Assembly (NCBI GenBank): GCA_016215555.1
Contig: JACRJC010000034.1
Span: forward strand, 62,001 to 126,000
DNA: 64,000 nt
Direction: 5' to 3'
DNA from: Rhodospirillales bacterium
GTDB taxonomy: Bacteria > Pseudomonadota > Alphaproteobacteria > Rhodospirillales > WMHbin7
The position numbers and the translations under genes were made by a program. Below the pieces are notes generated by a model. That model saw nothing but the letters and a program-made list of their open reading frames with translations, had not been told where the DNA came from and did no database searches. This document shows, one piece after another, positions 3,714 to 50,954 of the stretch (within the stretch, counting starts at the first letter, position 1; every line of letters starts with the position of its first letter).

Positions 3714-3801
3714 GAACCGCCCGTCTACTCATACCCTAAACTTCAAAGCCAAACCCGAGCGCAGAACCGCTTCAAGCGAGGGTTTGACCGAACAGAACCG
3801 G

Positions 3802-3838
3802 GAAAAAGTACACCGAGGCGAAGCCGAGGGACTTTTTC
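3802..3838 (-). terminator. Possible infC terminator
   Basis: Arms GAAAAAGT (3802-3809) and ACTTTTTC (3831-3838) enclose a small GC stem. On the minus strand the structure begins a few bases after the infC stop and carries T-rich sequence on its 3' arm. The stem is AT-rich, so this is only a plausible rho-independent terminator of thrS-infC. Confidence 0.4.
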
Positions 3839-3844
3839 ACGATG

Positions 3845-4381
3845 TTATTTCGGCGCCATGACCATGACCATCTGGCGGCCTTCCATTTTGGGGAACTGTT
3901 CGACCTTGGCCAACAGATCGAGTTCTTCCTTGACCCGATCCAGGACCTTGACCCCCAGTTCCTGATGCGCCATCTCGCGGCCACGGAAGCGAAGGGTCAC
4001 CTTCACCTTGTCGCCTTCCTCGAGGAATTTCTTCATGGCCCGCATCTTGACCTGATAGTCGTTTTCGTCGATGCCCGGACGCAGCTTGATCTCTTTGATT
4101 TCGATCACTTTCTGCTTCTTGCGGGCCTCGTTCTTTTTCTTCTGCTCCTCGTATTTGTACTTGCCGAAATCGAGGATTTTGCAGACCGGCGGCTCGGCAT
4201 TGGGCGATACTTCGACCAGATCGAGTCCGGCCTGACTTGCCTTTTCCAGAGCTTCACGGATTTGAACGACGCCCAGCATTTCACCGTTCTCATCGACGAG
4301 CCGCACGCTGCGTGCGGAAATCTCGCCGTTAATGCGCGGCCCATCCTTAGAGGGCGGCGCGGGCATTGGTCCTTTAACGAT
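3845..4381 (-). CDS. infC: Translation initiation factor IF-3, probable AUC start
   Basis: IF-3 binds the 30S subunit, blocks premature joining and proofreads start codons. The protein shows the N-terminal block [20 protein letters not shown], the lysine-rich linker and the C-terminal domain ending with the [12 protein letters not shown] type of sequence. The first in-frame ATG (4364-4366) has AGGA only 3 nt upstream. Five codons earlier an ATC (4379-4381) sits exactly 6 nt after a perfect GGAGG (4388-4392). Because infC genes classically use a non-canonical start for autoregulation, I place the start at the ATC (about 178 aa). It lies 45 bp after thrS and is probably co-transcribed. No rpmI-rplT follows. 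Confidence 0.9.
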
Positions 4382-4387
4382 CAGAAA

Positions 4388-4392
4388 CCTCC
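4388..4392 (-). promoter_or_regulatory. Ribosome binding site that selects the AUC start of infC
   Basis: GGAGG on the minus strand, 6 nt from the ATC at 4379-4381 and 21 nt from the first ATG. The spacing fits the ATC and not the ATG. Confidence 0.65.
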
Positions 4393-4426
4393 ATCGGTTG
4401 CGTCAAAGATCCGGCATGACGACAAG

Positions 4427-6370
4427 TCACGCCGTCTCCCGCCGGATATCGGGCGGGGTCGATTCGGCCCTAAGCATAGCCACAGCCTCATCAAGCGCAA
4501 GCACTTCTTGCTTCTCGCCGCCCAGGCGGCGCAGGGCCACCTGGCGGTTCTCGGCCTCGCGCTTGCCCACCACCAGCAGATAGGGGACTTTGGCCAGCGA
4601 ATGTTCGCGCACCTTGAGGTTGATTTTCTCGTTGCGCAGATCGGTGTCGGCCTTCAGCCCGGCCTTCTTGAGGGCCCAGCGCACCTCTTCGGCATAGGAA
4701 TCGCCGTCGCTGGTGATGGTGGCGACCACGGCCTGGGTGGGCGCCAGCCAGCCCGGCAAGCGGCCGGCATGGTTCTCGATCAGGATGCCGGTAAAGCGCT
4801 CGAGCGAGCCGAACAAGGCCCGATGCAGCATGACCGGGCGGTGCTTGGCCCCATCCTCGCCGACATAAGTAACGTCGAAACGCTCGGTCAGATTCATATC
4901 GACCTGCAGCGTGCCGCACTGCCAGTCGCGCCCGATGGCGTCGCGCAAAACGAATTCCAGCTTGGGGCCATAGAAGGCGCCTTCGCCGGGATTGAGCGTA
5001 TAGGCGAGGTTCATATGTTCAAGCGCGCCCTTCAGGGCCGCTTCCAGCTTGTCCCAGACCTCGTCCGAGCCGATGCGCTTTTCGGGCCGGTCCGAGAATT
5101 TGATGCGCACATTGTCGAAGCCGAAATCCTTGTAGATGTCGAGGATCAGATCGACCACCTTCTTGCACTCGTCTTCCATCTGTTCCAGCGTGCAGAAGAT
5201 ATGGGCATCATCCTGGGTAAAGGCGCGAACGCGCATCAGGCCGTGTAGCGCGCCCGAAGGCTCGTAGCGATGAACCTTGCCGAATTCGGCCATGCGCAAG
5301 GGCAGGTCGCGATAGCTTTTGATGCCTTGCGCGAAGACCTGGATGCCGCCCGGGCAGTTCATCGGCTTGACGGCATAGATGCGCTCGTCCTCGCGGTCGG
5401 GAAAGAAGCGGGTGAAGAACATGTTTTCGCGGAAAGTGTCCCAATGGCCGCTGGTCATCCACATCTGGCGGTCCATCAGTTCCGGCGTGCTGATCTCGAC
5501 ATAGCCGGCCTCGTCCTGGCGGCGGCGCATATAATCCATCAGGGTGCGAAACAGGGTCCAGCCCTGGGGATGCCAAAAGACGGCGCCCGGAGCCTCTTCT
5601 TGGAAGTGGAAAAGGTCCATCTCCTTGCCCAGGCGGCGATGGTCGCGCTTCTCGGCCTCTTCCAGCATGGTGGTGTAGGCGTTCAGATCCTTGTCGTTGG
5701 TCCAGGCGGTGCCGTAGATGCGAGACAGCATGGCGTTCTTGGAATCGCCCCGCCAATAGGCGCCGGCCACCTTCATCAGCTTGAAGGACTTGCCCAGCTT
5801 GGAGGTCGAGGGCAGATGGGGACCACGGCACAAATCCATCCAATCGCCCTGTCGGTAGATCGAAATTGGCTGGCCGTCGGGAATGGCCCCGATCAGCTCG
5901 GCCTTGTAATGCTCGCCGATGCTTTTGAAATGGGCGACCGCTTTGTCGCGTTCCCACTCTTCGCGCACCAGCGGCAGATCGCGGTCCACGATCTGTTTCA
6001 TCCGCTCTTCGATCTTGGGCAGGTCTTCCGGCGTGAAGGGAGTCTTGGCGGCGAAATCGTAATAGAAGCCGTTCTCGATGGCCGGGCCGATGGTGACCTG
6101 CGTCCCCGGGAACAGTTCCTGCACCGCCTGGGCCATGACATGGGCGGCGTCGTGGCGGATGAGTTCCAGCCCCTCGGGATCCTTGGCGGTGACGATGGCG
6201 ACCTTGGCGTCAGTCTCGATGCGGGTCGCAAGATCGACCAGCGTCCCATCCAGCTTCATGGCCAGGGCGGCCTTGGCCAGTCCGGCGCCGATGCCGGCGG
6301 CCAGTTCGGTTCCCGTCACCGCGCCCTCGAATGAGCGGACGGAACCATCGGGAAGGGTAATCGCAACCAT
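4427..6370 (-). CDS. thrS: Threonyl-tRNA synthetase
   Basis: Class II aminoacyl-tRNA synthetase of 647 aa, full length. It has an N-terminal TGS domain (about residues 1-60, beginning [14 protein letters not shown]) and the second editing domain with [11 protein letters not shown], where the zinc/editing histidines sit. The catalytic core carries [10 protein letters not shown] and the motif 2 loop [14 protein letters not shown]. The anticodon-binding domain at the C-terminus ends [15 protein letters not shown]. It is the first gene before infC. The 110-bp upstream gap shows no obvious T-box or attenuator. Confidence 0.97.
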
Positions 6371-48624: not shown

Positions 48625-48705
48625 GGATATCCCTTTGTCCTGGTGACGTTTTCCCTCTTATAGCACGGGCCGGGCGGCAATTCATCCGCTCCGGCTTGCC
48701 GGTAA

Positions 48706-48734
48706 TTTACTAATGGTGTCTTTTACTGTATATA
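48706..48734 (+). promoter_or_regulatory. Possible promoter of the hydrolase/membrane pair
   Basis: TTTACT (48706-48711) and TATATA (48729-48734), 17 bp apart, in an AT-rich patch unlike the surrounding DNA, 37 bp before ATG 48771. Confidence 0.4.
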
Positions 48735-48770
48735 AAACCCCGTTATACGATTCTGCATCGGGGGGAAAAG

Positions 48771-49955
48771 ATGCTGAAGCTGGTCTGGACGCCGGGGAAG
48801 GTGCAGGTTCCGGCCCTGCCCGAATATCTGCAAACCCAAGACAGCCTGACTCTGAACGCCAGTACGGGTCCGCTGCTGCAGGCCTTTTCCCGCGTCGGCC
48901 TCAACCGAATGGTTCCGGCGCCCCAACCCGAACCGGCGCTGAGGGCGGCGCTGGACGCCTGGCTGGCCATCAAGGCCCGCCCGCGCATCGTCATTCTGGT
49001 GCATGGATTCTCCTACGATCCTTCGGGCAGAGTGGGCAACGGCACCGACAATCCCTTCAATTCCGTCTATGGCACCCCGGGACCGGCTCTCGATTATCAC
49101 AATAGCTGGCTGCCGATCATCGGCGAATGCACGGATACGGGCGTTTCGACGGGCGAGGATCTGGCCATCGCCTTTGCCTGGACCAGCGAGGGCAGCTTCT
49201 CGCAATTCGCCAATGTCGGCTGGAACAATCCCTATCAATATGCCGTCTTCGACCTGGCGCCGCTGGCGGCGCGGGCGCTGGCCACCGTCATCCTTTATCT
49301 GCAGCAAAGCGCCAATGTCCCGGTCCATATTTTCGCGCACAGCCTGGGCACCAGGGCGACCAGCCTGGCCTTCCGCCAGCTTGAACGCGGGCCGCAAGAC
49401 GAGCAGATCGGCAAGCTGATCCTTCTCGGCGGCGCCGAATATTGCGTCGATGCCTTCGCCAATCTGACGGGCCGGGCTTTTCAAGTCCTAAGCGTCGCCA
49501 GCCGCATCGACAGGGTTCTGAGCATGGGCGGCGACGAGTTCGGCCATCCGGTGCGATACAACGGCACGCCAGCCGCCCGGGTGATCGGGCGCGACGGCGT
49601 CAAAATCCTGCCCAACTGGCTGGACATCCAGCTCGACCATCCCGGCGTCGTGCCCTGGCTGGCGGGGCAGGGCTATCCCAATGTTTCCGCCGGCCATGTG
49701 GACGGCGACCACTCGCTGGCCTGGATGAATCACTGGGCCTACTACATGAACGACGGCAACCGCAAACTGCTGAGCGATCTGTTGGCCGATCCCGACAAGA
49801 ACATCGATTGGTTCAGGAGCAATTATTTTCCCGAGGGCATCGACGCCTCCTATTACGGCAATTTCGATCCCTTCATTCCCGAAACCCCGACATCGCTGGA
49901 TGGCCGGCGGTACGAACCGCCCCTACCAACAACAAATCAGGGAGATGCGACATGA
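48771..49955 (+). CDS. Alpha/beta hydrolase, unusual family
   Basis: 394 aa, no signal peptide or TM. The oxyanion strand is VILVHGFSYD (about residues 74-83) and the nucleophile elbow is FAHSLGT with Ser191. A candidate catalytic His is in DGDHSLAWMNHW (about residue 332), and an acid could come from the preceding strand (SVASRIDRV). It resembles DUF900-type lipase/esterases rather than haloalkane dehalogenases. Its stop overlaps the next gene as ATGA, so its job is probably tied to that membrane protein. Substrate unknown. A further 50 residues at the C-terminus (DYYGNFDPF-like, Pro/Thr-rich) are of unknown use. Confidence 0.8.
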   Translation: MLKLVWTPGKVQVPALPEYLQTQDSLTLNASTGPLLQAFSRVGLNRMVPAPQPEPALRAALDAWLAIKARPRIVILVHGFSYDPSGRVGNGTDNPFNSVYGTPGPALDYHNSWLPIIGECTDTGVSTGEDLAIAFAWTSEGSFSQFANVGWNNPYQYAVFDLAPLAARALATVILYLQQSANVPVHIFAHSLGTRATSLAFRQLERGPQDEQIGKLILLGGAEYCVDAFANLTGRAFQVLSVASRIDRVLSMGGDEFGHPVRYNGTPAARVIGRDGVKILPNWLDIQLDHPGVVPWLAGQGYPNVSAGHVDGDHSLAWMNHWAYYMNDGNRKLLSDLLADPDKNIDWFRSNYFPEGIDASYYGNFDPFIPETPTSLDGRRYEPPLPTTNQGDAT

Positions 49956-50737
49956 ACAAGGCCTTCGCGTTTTTCGTCGTCCTTCTTCTGCCGATTGCGG
50001 CCCAGGCCGAAGAGGCTGCCCAGGCTGCGGCACCAGTCATTCCAAGCTGGCCGTTGAAGAACGGGCCTTGGTTCATAGCTTTAGCCATCTTGTTCCTGCT
50101 CGTTTACGGAATGACTTACGGAATGCTGCGCGATCGCAAGCCATATGACGGCCTGGCAGGCCTCCCAGATAGGGCAATTCCCTTTAGCCTAAGTCGTCTT
50201 CAAATGACCCTGTGGACATTGGTCATCATCGGCAGCTATCTCTATCTGGCCTATGCGACGGGCGATTTGAATTTGGCGGTGAAGGATCAGGCCCTGGCTC
50301 TGATGGGCATTGTCGGAGGGACTTCGCTGGGCGCTGCCATCGTGGATGCCTCCACCTCGGATGGCGACGCCATCGACAAGGCCTTCGTTGTGGCGAAGGA
50401 AGCTCAAGACGGTCTCACCAAGGCCAAGGAAAACGGGGATAAGGCCGCCATCGACAATGCCCAAGAGATTTTTAAAAGGGCTCAAGAGCAACTTAAGAAT
50501 CTGGCGCCGAAGTCAGCCCACATACTCAAAGACCTTCTTTACGACGTCAATGGGGTCAGCCTGCACCGCGTACAAATGCTGTCGTGGACGCTGGTCTCGC
50601 TTTTGATGTTCATCGCCAGTGTCGTCACAAAGCGCGAGATGCCCGAACTAAATGGATCTCTTGTCGCCCTAATGGGGCTTAGCAACGGCGTCTATCTGGG
50701 CTTCAAGATTCCTGAGAAGCAGGCCAAGGAACAATAG
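49952..50737 (+). CDS. Membrane protein with internal duplication, unknown function
   Basis: 261 aa. A signal-like N-terminus (FAFFVVLLLPIAAQA) is followed by a TM segment near 40-57 and two homologous halves. Half 1 (residues 79-127) reads SLSRLQMTLWTLV, then ALALMGIVGGTSLG. Half 2 (203-250) reads SLHRVQMLSWTLV, then LVALMGLSNGVYLG. The shared pattern is SLxRxQMxxWTLV plus ALMG. Between them is a charged helical segment of about 55 residues (KEAQDGLTKAKENGDK). I recall this pattern from unnamed bacterial membrane proteins, but no function. It overlaps the hydrolase gene by 4 bp. Confidence 0.8.
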   Translation: MNKAFAFFVVLLLPIAAQAEEAAQAAAPVIPSWPLKNGPWFIALAILFLLVYGMTYGMLRDRKPYDGLAGLPDRAIPFSLSRLQMTLWTLVIIGSYLYLAYATGDLNLAVKDQALALMGIVGGTSLGAAIVDASTSDGDAIDKAFVVAKEAQDGLTKAKENGDKAAIDNAQEIFKRAQEQLKNLAPKSAHILKDLLYDVNGVSLHRVQMLSWTLVSLLMFIASVVTKREMPELNGSLVALMGLSNGVYLGFKIPEKQAKEQ

Positions 50738-50744
50738 GCGACGG

Positions 50745-50954
50745 CTACAGCGCCTCGACCCGCTCGATCACGAAACCGCGTTCGGGCGGGTACTTGACCT
50801 TGACCTTGCTTTCAGCGCCTTTGACGTCCTCGGCCTCGATCTCGATGTAATGGGTATCGGCCCAGGAGTCGGGATATTGGCGGTGATGCTCGCCCTCATA
50901 GACCAGGCGGCGCACCTCGGCATTGTATAAGGCGATTTCATAGGGGCGCGTCAT
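50745..50954 (-). CDS. Small hypothetical protein
   Basis: 69 aa if it starts at ATG 50954 (MTRPYEIALYNAEVRRL); an ATG seven codons upstream is also open. The sequence is soluble, with several aromatic residues and alternating charge (HYIEIEAEDVKGAESKVKVKYP), suggesting a small beta-sheet fold. No family recognised. It converges on the membrane-protein gene. Confidence 0.6.
   Translation of the reverse strand: MTRPYEIALYNAEVRRLVYEGEHHRQYPDSWADTHYIEIEAEDVKGAESKVKVKYPPERGFVIERVEAL

Follow-up and report, generated by a model that had tools for sequence, protein, structure and literature searches.

A hydrolase and duplicated membrane protein encoded side by side in a Rhodospirillales genome, and the enzymes linked to the membrane-protein family

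The question raised by this locus is what an alpha/beta hydrolase does in the company of an internally duplicated membrane protein, and whether the two belong to a unit that recurs elsewhere. In the window (the whole 64,000-nucleotide stretch of DNA that was analysed), the genes for two such proteins, P0001 and P0002, follow each other on one strand. A preliminary description of the pair had proposed a lipid-remodelling, effector or defence unit. These three roles are not separated by the evidence, and an effector or lysis role is favoured.

Layout and insertion of the gene pair

The features of the cassette are as follows.
48668 to 50746, no strand: insertion with both cassette genes (genus-wide DNA search and flank alignment)
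48690 to 48770, + strand: AT-rich leader 5' of the pair, 43% GC
48771 to 49955, + strand: alpha/beta hydrolase P0001, 394 aa, without signal peptide (Pfam DUF900; N-terminus inspected)
49952 to 49955, + strand: ATGA stop/start overlap of P0001 and P0002 (sequence and translations)
49952 to 50737, + strand: membrane protein P0002, 261 aa, with a signal-peptide-like N-terminus and about five transmembrane (TM) helices

The insertion was identified by comparison with three other genomes of the genus. DNA search and flank alignment gave 2,079 bp (about 2.08 kb) in the window and approximately 21 bp in the three congeners, with conserved flanks. The congener flanking genes are present and contiguous (matches at query 1-1668 and 3748-5500), and neither P0001 nor P0002 was found in the three genomes. 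Since both genes are missing and only about 21 bp lie between contiguous flanks, the pair was gained as a discrete unit, or else cleanly lost from the three congeners. The GC content is 55% in the membrane gene and 62% in both the hydrolase gene and the window. As part of the joint explanation given below, the cassette may be a horizontally gained two-gene module that attacks the envelope, a reading that we consider plausible at somewhat under even odds.

The ATGA overlap, already recognized in the preliminary description, suggests that translation of the two genes is coupled. That description also gave the pair an AT-rich promoter of its own. The AT-richness was borne out, as the 43% GC of the leader falls in the lowest 0.7% among 80-bp windows; the promoter was not, as a scan found neither a sigma-70 consensus promoter nor a terminator. 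The leader is a probable promoter region.

Anatomy of the hydrolase and the membrane protein

P0001 matches Pfam DUF900 (PF05990) with 24 bits, above the curated cut-off of 20.5, and has the HGF and AHSLG motifs attributed to it earlier (VHGF at residues 77-80, AHSLG at 189-193). The G/A-x-S-x-G serine nucleophile, Asp and His of DUF900 members are all found, and the predicted triad Ser191-Asp247-His321 is common, by alignment, to the one relative detected in 248 genomes of the order. This relative is a prophage protein (locus L105 in genome G030) encoded 3' of the tail genes and fused to a GH108 endolysin with a peptidoglycan-binding domain. Because this relative is prophage-encoded, endolysin-fused and conserved in Ser, Asp and His, a lipolytic enzyme of the lysis type is the most likely identity of P0001. 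In the Gram-negative prophage itself, the fusion of an N-terminal alpha/beta hydrolase to the endolysin (L105:8070-9533) is the last phage gene before the host genes.

P0002 consists, in order, of a signal-peptide-like N-terminus, one TM helix and two repeat copies separated by a charged helical linker of 57 residues. The repeat unit reads S-L-x-R-x-Q-M, then a hydrophobic hairpin, then A-L-M-G.
50177 to 50344, + strand: FAM repeat 1, residues 76-131, FSLSRLQMTLWTLV...ALALMGIVGGTSLGA
50351 to 50521, + strand: charged helical linker joining repeats 1 and 2, residues 134-190 (AlphaFold helices 136-161 and 164-184, block pLDDT 69-90)
50549 to 50710, + strand: FAM repeat 2, residues 200-253, GVSLHRVQMLSWTLV...VALMGLSNGVYLGFK

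The preliminary description had noticed the shared SLxRxQM and ALMG motifs and the charged helical segment between them, and the analysis confirmed both. The homologous halves are SLSRLQMTLWTLV...ALALMGIVGGTSLGA and SLHRVQMLSWTLV...VALMGLSNGVYLGFK. Alignment of the half-profiles with hhalign gave a probability of 97.9% (E 5.6e-13), against at most 2.1% in column-shuffled controls (n=40). The Smith-Waterman score of the halves was 60, against 23 +/- 4.6 in 2000 shuffles, none of which scored as high. The internal repeat is not due to chance. In the distant relatives L046, L050 and L079, the second-half model is matched by the first half.

The predicted model of P0002 (pLDDT 72, modest) contains a signal-like helix, one TM helix, two helical hairpins and the long helical linker, for which a cytoplasmic location is predicted. 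Foldseek searches of PDB and BFVD returned no match to the fold at E < 0.001, and a sequence search of PDB likewise gave nothing significant. Small two-helix phage proteins in BFVD reached a high probability, but with E 0.5-1.3, and were set aside as hairpins of a generic kind. P0002 has no significant match in Pfam, NCBIfam, PADLOC or PHROGs; its PHROGs hits are sub-threshold, the best (E 0.011) being a family of unknown function and the sole holin match having E 0.82. No nucleotide-binding domain was recognized.

The membrane family and its enzyme partners

The family founded by P0002 is here called FAM. Relatives occur in a Myxococcales MAG, Bacteroidota, Undibacterium and other Burkholderiales, and also on Rhizobium and Polymorphobacter plasmids. 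A 13-row profile (A1), invariant at S79, Q84, W88, L117, G119, D194, R206, Q208, G242, G246, Y248 and K252, was used for genome searches and found FAM in 12 of 397 Pseudomonadota genomes (about 3%) and in 13 of 387 Alphaproteobacteria genomes. A phage or prophage origin was rejected, as IMG/VR and GenBank phages yielded no FAM. Most members have an N-terminal exported domain, for which a beta-sandwich was predicted in one member (low confidence) and which P0002 lacks. In split FAM, the halves are separate genes of 110-150 aa (L083-L085, L124, L125).

Neighbourhoods were read in about 46 genus-level lineages, near relatives being collapsed by our own judgement. Partner assignments rest on Pfam or PHROG matches or on record annotation, the simple gene caller being unreliable in GC-rich loci. 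An enzyme gene stands in the same gene run as FAM in about 17 of the 46 lineages (13 with tandem and four with split FAM). No enzyme adjoins FAM in about 29, including all Mucilaginibacter loci. FAM is thus modular and linked to enzymes in a sizeable minority of lineages and a stand-alone protein elsewhere. The many solitary genes indicate that FAM also functions alone or with unlinked partners. Hydrolases and nucleases had been expected to recur beside the family, and lipases, patatins, lysozymes or endolysins, nucleases and a subtilase do so in the linked lineages. The idea of a modular effector is supported to that extent; the accompanying expectation that FAM would seldom occur alone fails, since it literally does so in most lineages.

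The partners are diverse. The window has an alpha/beta hydrolase as partner, and so does L055, from the same family, where the gene lies 11 bp upstream of FAM; BLASTP detected no homology between the two beyond the alpha/beta hydrolase class. A Tle1-like phospholipase (PF09994) adjoins FAM in L007 and L053/L088 and, together with a GH24 lysozyme, in L044, L075 and L076 (one genus). GH24 is also the partner in L016/L017, L018 and L077, GH19 in L045, and an N-acetylmuramidase, 478 bp away, in L090. CHAP, peptidoglycan-binding and patatin genes lie three to five genes downstream of FAM in L008, a patatin gene overlaps FAM in L127 (from a later Alphaproteobacteria sample), and Trypco1 and subtilase genes adjoin it in L054. 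In L049, L084, L085 and L124, split FAM (two membrane genes of about 115-150 aa) is followed by a NucA-type nuclease (PF01223) with a signal peptide. FAM and partner genes overlap in the window, L053 and L127. The lytic and lipolytic partners examined are leaderless, unlike the nucleases, with an uncertain start for the L127 patatin, and the peptidoglycan hydrolases match phage endolysin families. The Alphaproteobacteria sample, drawn after the pattern had been noticed, added one patatin pair and one nuclease set in about ten new lineages, the others being solitary.

Adjacency was counted in 18 carrier genomes, where four of 12 PF09994 genes and four of 17 PF00959 genes adjoin FAM, with a chance expectation below 0.01 for each (about 38 adjacent slots among about 95,000 genes, our estimate from genome sizes); as these carriers were hand-picked and include linked ones, the figures are indicative. 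Kinship inflates both counts, three of the four coming from one genus in each case, so that two genera each are left after collapsing. The linked loci L007, L016 and L018 lie outside this sample. On a 41-row FAM tree, presence of a linked enzyme requires ten changes, and Tle1 and alpha/beta hydrolase partners each arise at least twice. The neighbour test set by the preliminary description therefore came out positive, with partner switches on the tree and adjacency far above expectation for PF09994 and PF00959.

Several further arrangements were seen at these loci. The three-gene set of split FAM and nuclease recurs in four alphaproteobacterial genera. The split FAM of L083 lies beside a catechol dioxygenase gene and was counted as unlinked. 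A TerB-DnaJ protein is encoded directly upstream of FAM in G631 (L043:10401-11327); in L120, from another genome of the genus, the downstream genes are retained, but no TerB gene was called upstream. Beside FAM, L125:9178-10057 and L078:5088-6179 hold a homologous gene pair for a lipoprotein and a small helical protein. Similar pairs lie near FAM in L054, L089 and L090, where homology was not demonstrated, and as it holds only between L078 and L125, we do not count the pair among the components. In G661, the Tle1-like gene next to FAM matches in two pieces, apparently through a frameshift (L075:6835-7950), and is intact in two congeners.

Possible functions of the module

Our main reading, with a probability of roughly 40%, is that FAM is a membrane platform and gate, the enzyme an envelope effector and self-permeabilisation the outcome. 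The hydrolase, which has no signal peptide, would be made in the cytosol, membrane or envelope lipids being its predicted substrate. FAM, an inner-membrane protein with a duplicated two-TM hairpin, would hold it at the membrane until a trigger, sensed in the periplasm or delivered from the cytosol, caused FAM to let the enzyme reach its substrate in the envelope. By analogy with holin/endolysin cassettes, the producing cell would then be permeabilised or lysed, as suicidal phage defence or as content release. The FAM-enzyme interaction, gating, trigger and self-directed outcome are inferred. What was observed is the make-up of the two genes, the repeat in FAM, the insertion, repeated linkage to lytic and lipolytic enzymes that change from locus to locus, the leaderless partners and the lack of a type VI secretion system (T6SS) in several carriers. 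The prophage relative of the hydrolase, the match of the peptidoglycan hydrolases to phage endolysin families, the L088 run of cyclase, E2, FAM and Tle1 and the defence genes near FAM in L011, L053 and L087 also speak for this reading. Against a platform and gate speak the 29 or so lineages without an adjoining enzyme, which include most of the later Alphaproteobacteria sample, the absence of any PDB or BFVD structure that matches the FAM fold at E < 0.001 and the secreted nuclease partners of split FAM, which need no gate. FAM is also unlike known holins (its N-terminus is exported, and it has five TM helices and often an Ig-like domain in the periplasm) and is in no phage collection searched.

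Holin-dependent export is known as the type 10 secretion system (reviewed in PMC9527704). FAM loci resemble it and holin/endolysin lysis cassettes in that a leaderless endolysin-type enzyme gene lies beside a gene for an integral inner-membrane protein, with a lipoprotein gene pair nearby at some loci (L054, L078, L089, L090, L125). FAM departs from these systems in its exported N-terminus, its five or so TM helices, the duplication of its hairpin and the frequent Ig-like domain in the periplasm; it matches no holin family, has phospholipases among its partners and is absent from the phage collections searched. Kaur et al. 2020 (PMC7159879) describe effector-associated conflict systems, for example NucA with a peptidase (System 3) and EACC1 with a caspase (System 4), and do not name FAM in the sections consulted. 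A constant membrane component with variable effectors is shared, as are Trypco1 and subtilase beside FAM in L054 and NucA-type nucleases beside alphaproteobacterial split FAM; EACC1, however, has one TM helix, against about five and a duplication in FAM, no caspase or EAD domain was seen, and the neighbour in the window is a hydrolase.

A broader proposal, which we regard as doubtful, makes FAM the invariable core of envelope-effector modules of a class not yet described, in which a duplicated gate would be combined with interchangeable leaderless lipases, patatins or endolysins (a secreted nuclease in the split form), sometimes under cyclic-nucleotide control, for controlled self-lysis or phage defence. 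If true, one unnamed membrane protein with varied envelope-destroying enzymes would provide a new modular envelope breach outside T6SS and known holins. A function would also be given to a family without significant match in the databases searched and to leaderless Tle1-like, DUF900-like and GH24 genes of genomes that lack T6SS. The enzyme families are each known; the membrane family, putatively holin-like or an effector in function, has no significant match in the libraries searched, and keyword searches of the open-access literature did not find its recurrent pairing.

Among the alternatives, FAM could sense or regulate the state of the envelope from within the membrane, the neighbouring enzymes being housekeeping lipid or wall remodellers restrained at the membrane, with no killing involved. 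The solitary genes are the main weight for this: in many cases FAM stands by itself among genes of metabolism or of the envelope (L119, L123 next to an ABC-transport auxiliary lipoprotein gene), and its frequent predicted periplasmic beta-sandwich domain is sensor-like. We consider it unlikely though worth retaining, because the sparse distribution, the exact insertion in one species, the leaderless phage-type endolysin partners and the defence-type neighbours agree better with a mobile conflict module. Coincidence, with a small orphan family of membrane proteins lying near common hydrolases, would suit the unlinked majority of FAM copies and the commonness of alpha/beta hydrolases. It is strongly disfavoured by PF09994 and PF00959 adjacency at hundreds of times expectation, by the overlapping genes at three loci and by the several partner-type switches on the tree. 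FAM might instead be an antitoxin or immunity protein against a leaderless lytic enzyme delivered to other cells. The translationally coupled two-gene layout with lytic effectors would agree with this, Tle1, GH24 and nucleases often serve as T6SS effectors, the Tle1-like domain (PF09994) is the partner in three to four lineages, and T6SS is present in the Burkholderiaceae carriers tested. Yet TssC/VipB is absent from the window's genome (81% complete), G063, G238, G358, G266, G569, G941 and G923. G063, G358 and G266 carry FAM-enzyme pairs and are 98-100% complete, so T6SS delivery is excluded in these three and in the window's genome unless the assemblies miss it, and a T6SS effector reading was rejected for several carriers. 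No VgrG, PAAR, Hcp, adaptor or chaperone gene was seen beside FAM in the neighbourhoods read (annotations and Pfam scans of selected genes), and P0001 is DUF900-like, not Tle1. Moreover, lipases, lysozymes and nucleases that are not related to each other would all need to be neutralised by this one family, which is frequently solitary; we judge this alternative improbable.

A low probability is likewise given to the pair serving as effector in a phage defence system that is driven by cyclic nucleotides or by another sensor, the window copy having lost its sensor or using an unlinked one. Cyclic-nucleotide-activated effectors induce cell death (PMC9117128), those of CBASS systems with phospholipase and cyclase attack the membrane (PMC13092281), and the known outputs of Pycsar and CBASS include effectors that degrade lipids and membrane effectors (PMC9117128, PMC13092281). 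On a plasmid of Bradyrhizobium sp. 155 (L088:5210-9539), a PycC-like cyclase (E 1e-87), E2-ntca/E2-Crich, FAM and a Tle1-like phospholipase are encoded on one strand within 4.3 kb; they form a candidate operon of the Pycsar type, in which the effector pair would be new. Its close chromosomal relative L053 has Multi_ubiq, Prok-E2_E and a CapP-like gene near the FAM-Tle1 pair. The cyclase, however, was seen only at L088 and is absent around the window pair, which has no sensor gene; no PADLOC effector model matches FAM, in which no nucleotide-binding domain was recognized. FAM also lies beside PDC-S46 in L011 and an AriA/PtuA-like ATPase in L087; as the defence neighbours were hand-picked, this context is suggestive only. 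The four-gene operon of L088 makes a direct phage-defence test possible. On the Bradyrhizobium-type chromosome, multi-ubiquitin, Prok-E2 family E and TCAD9-like genes lie near FAM-Tle1 (L053:3443-7330), and the L088 run adjoins an AAA ATPase gene and a second DUF2235 gene.
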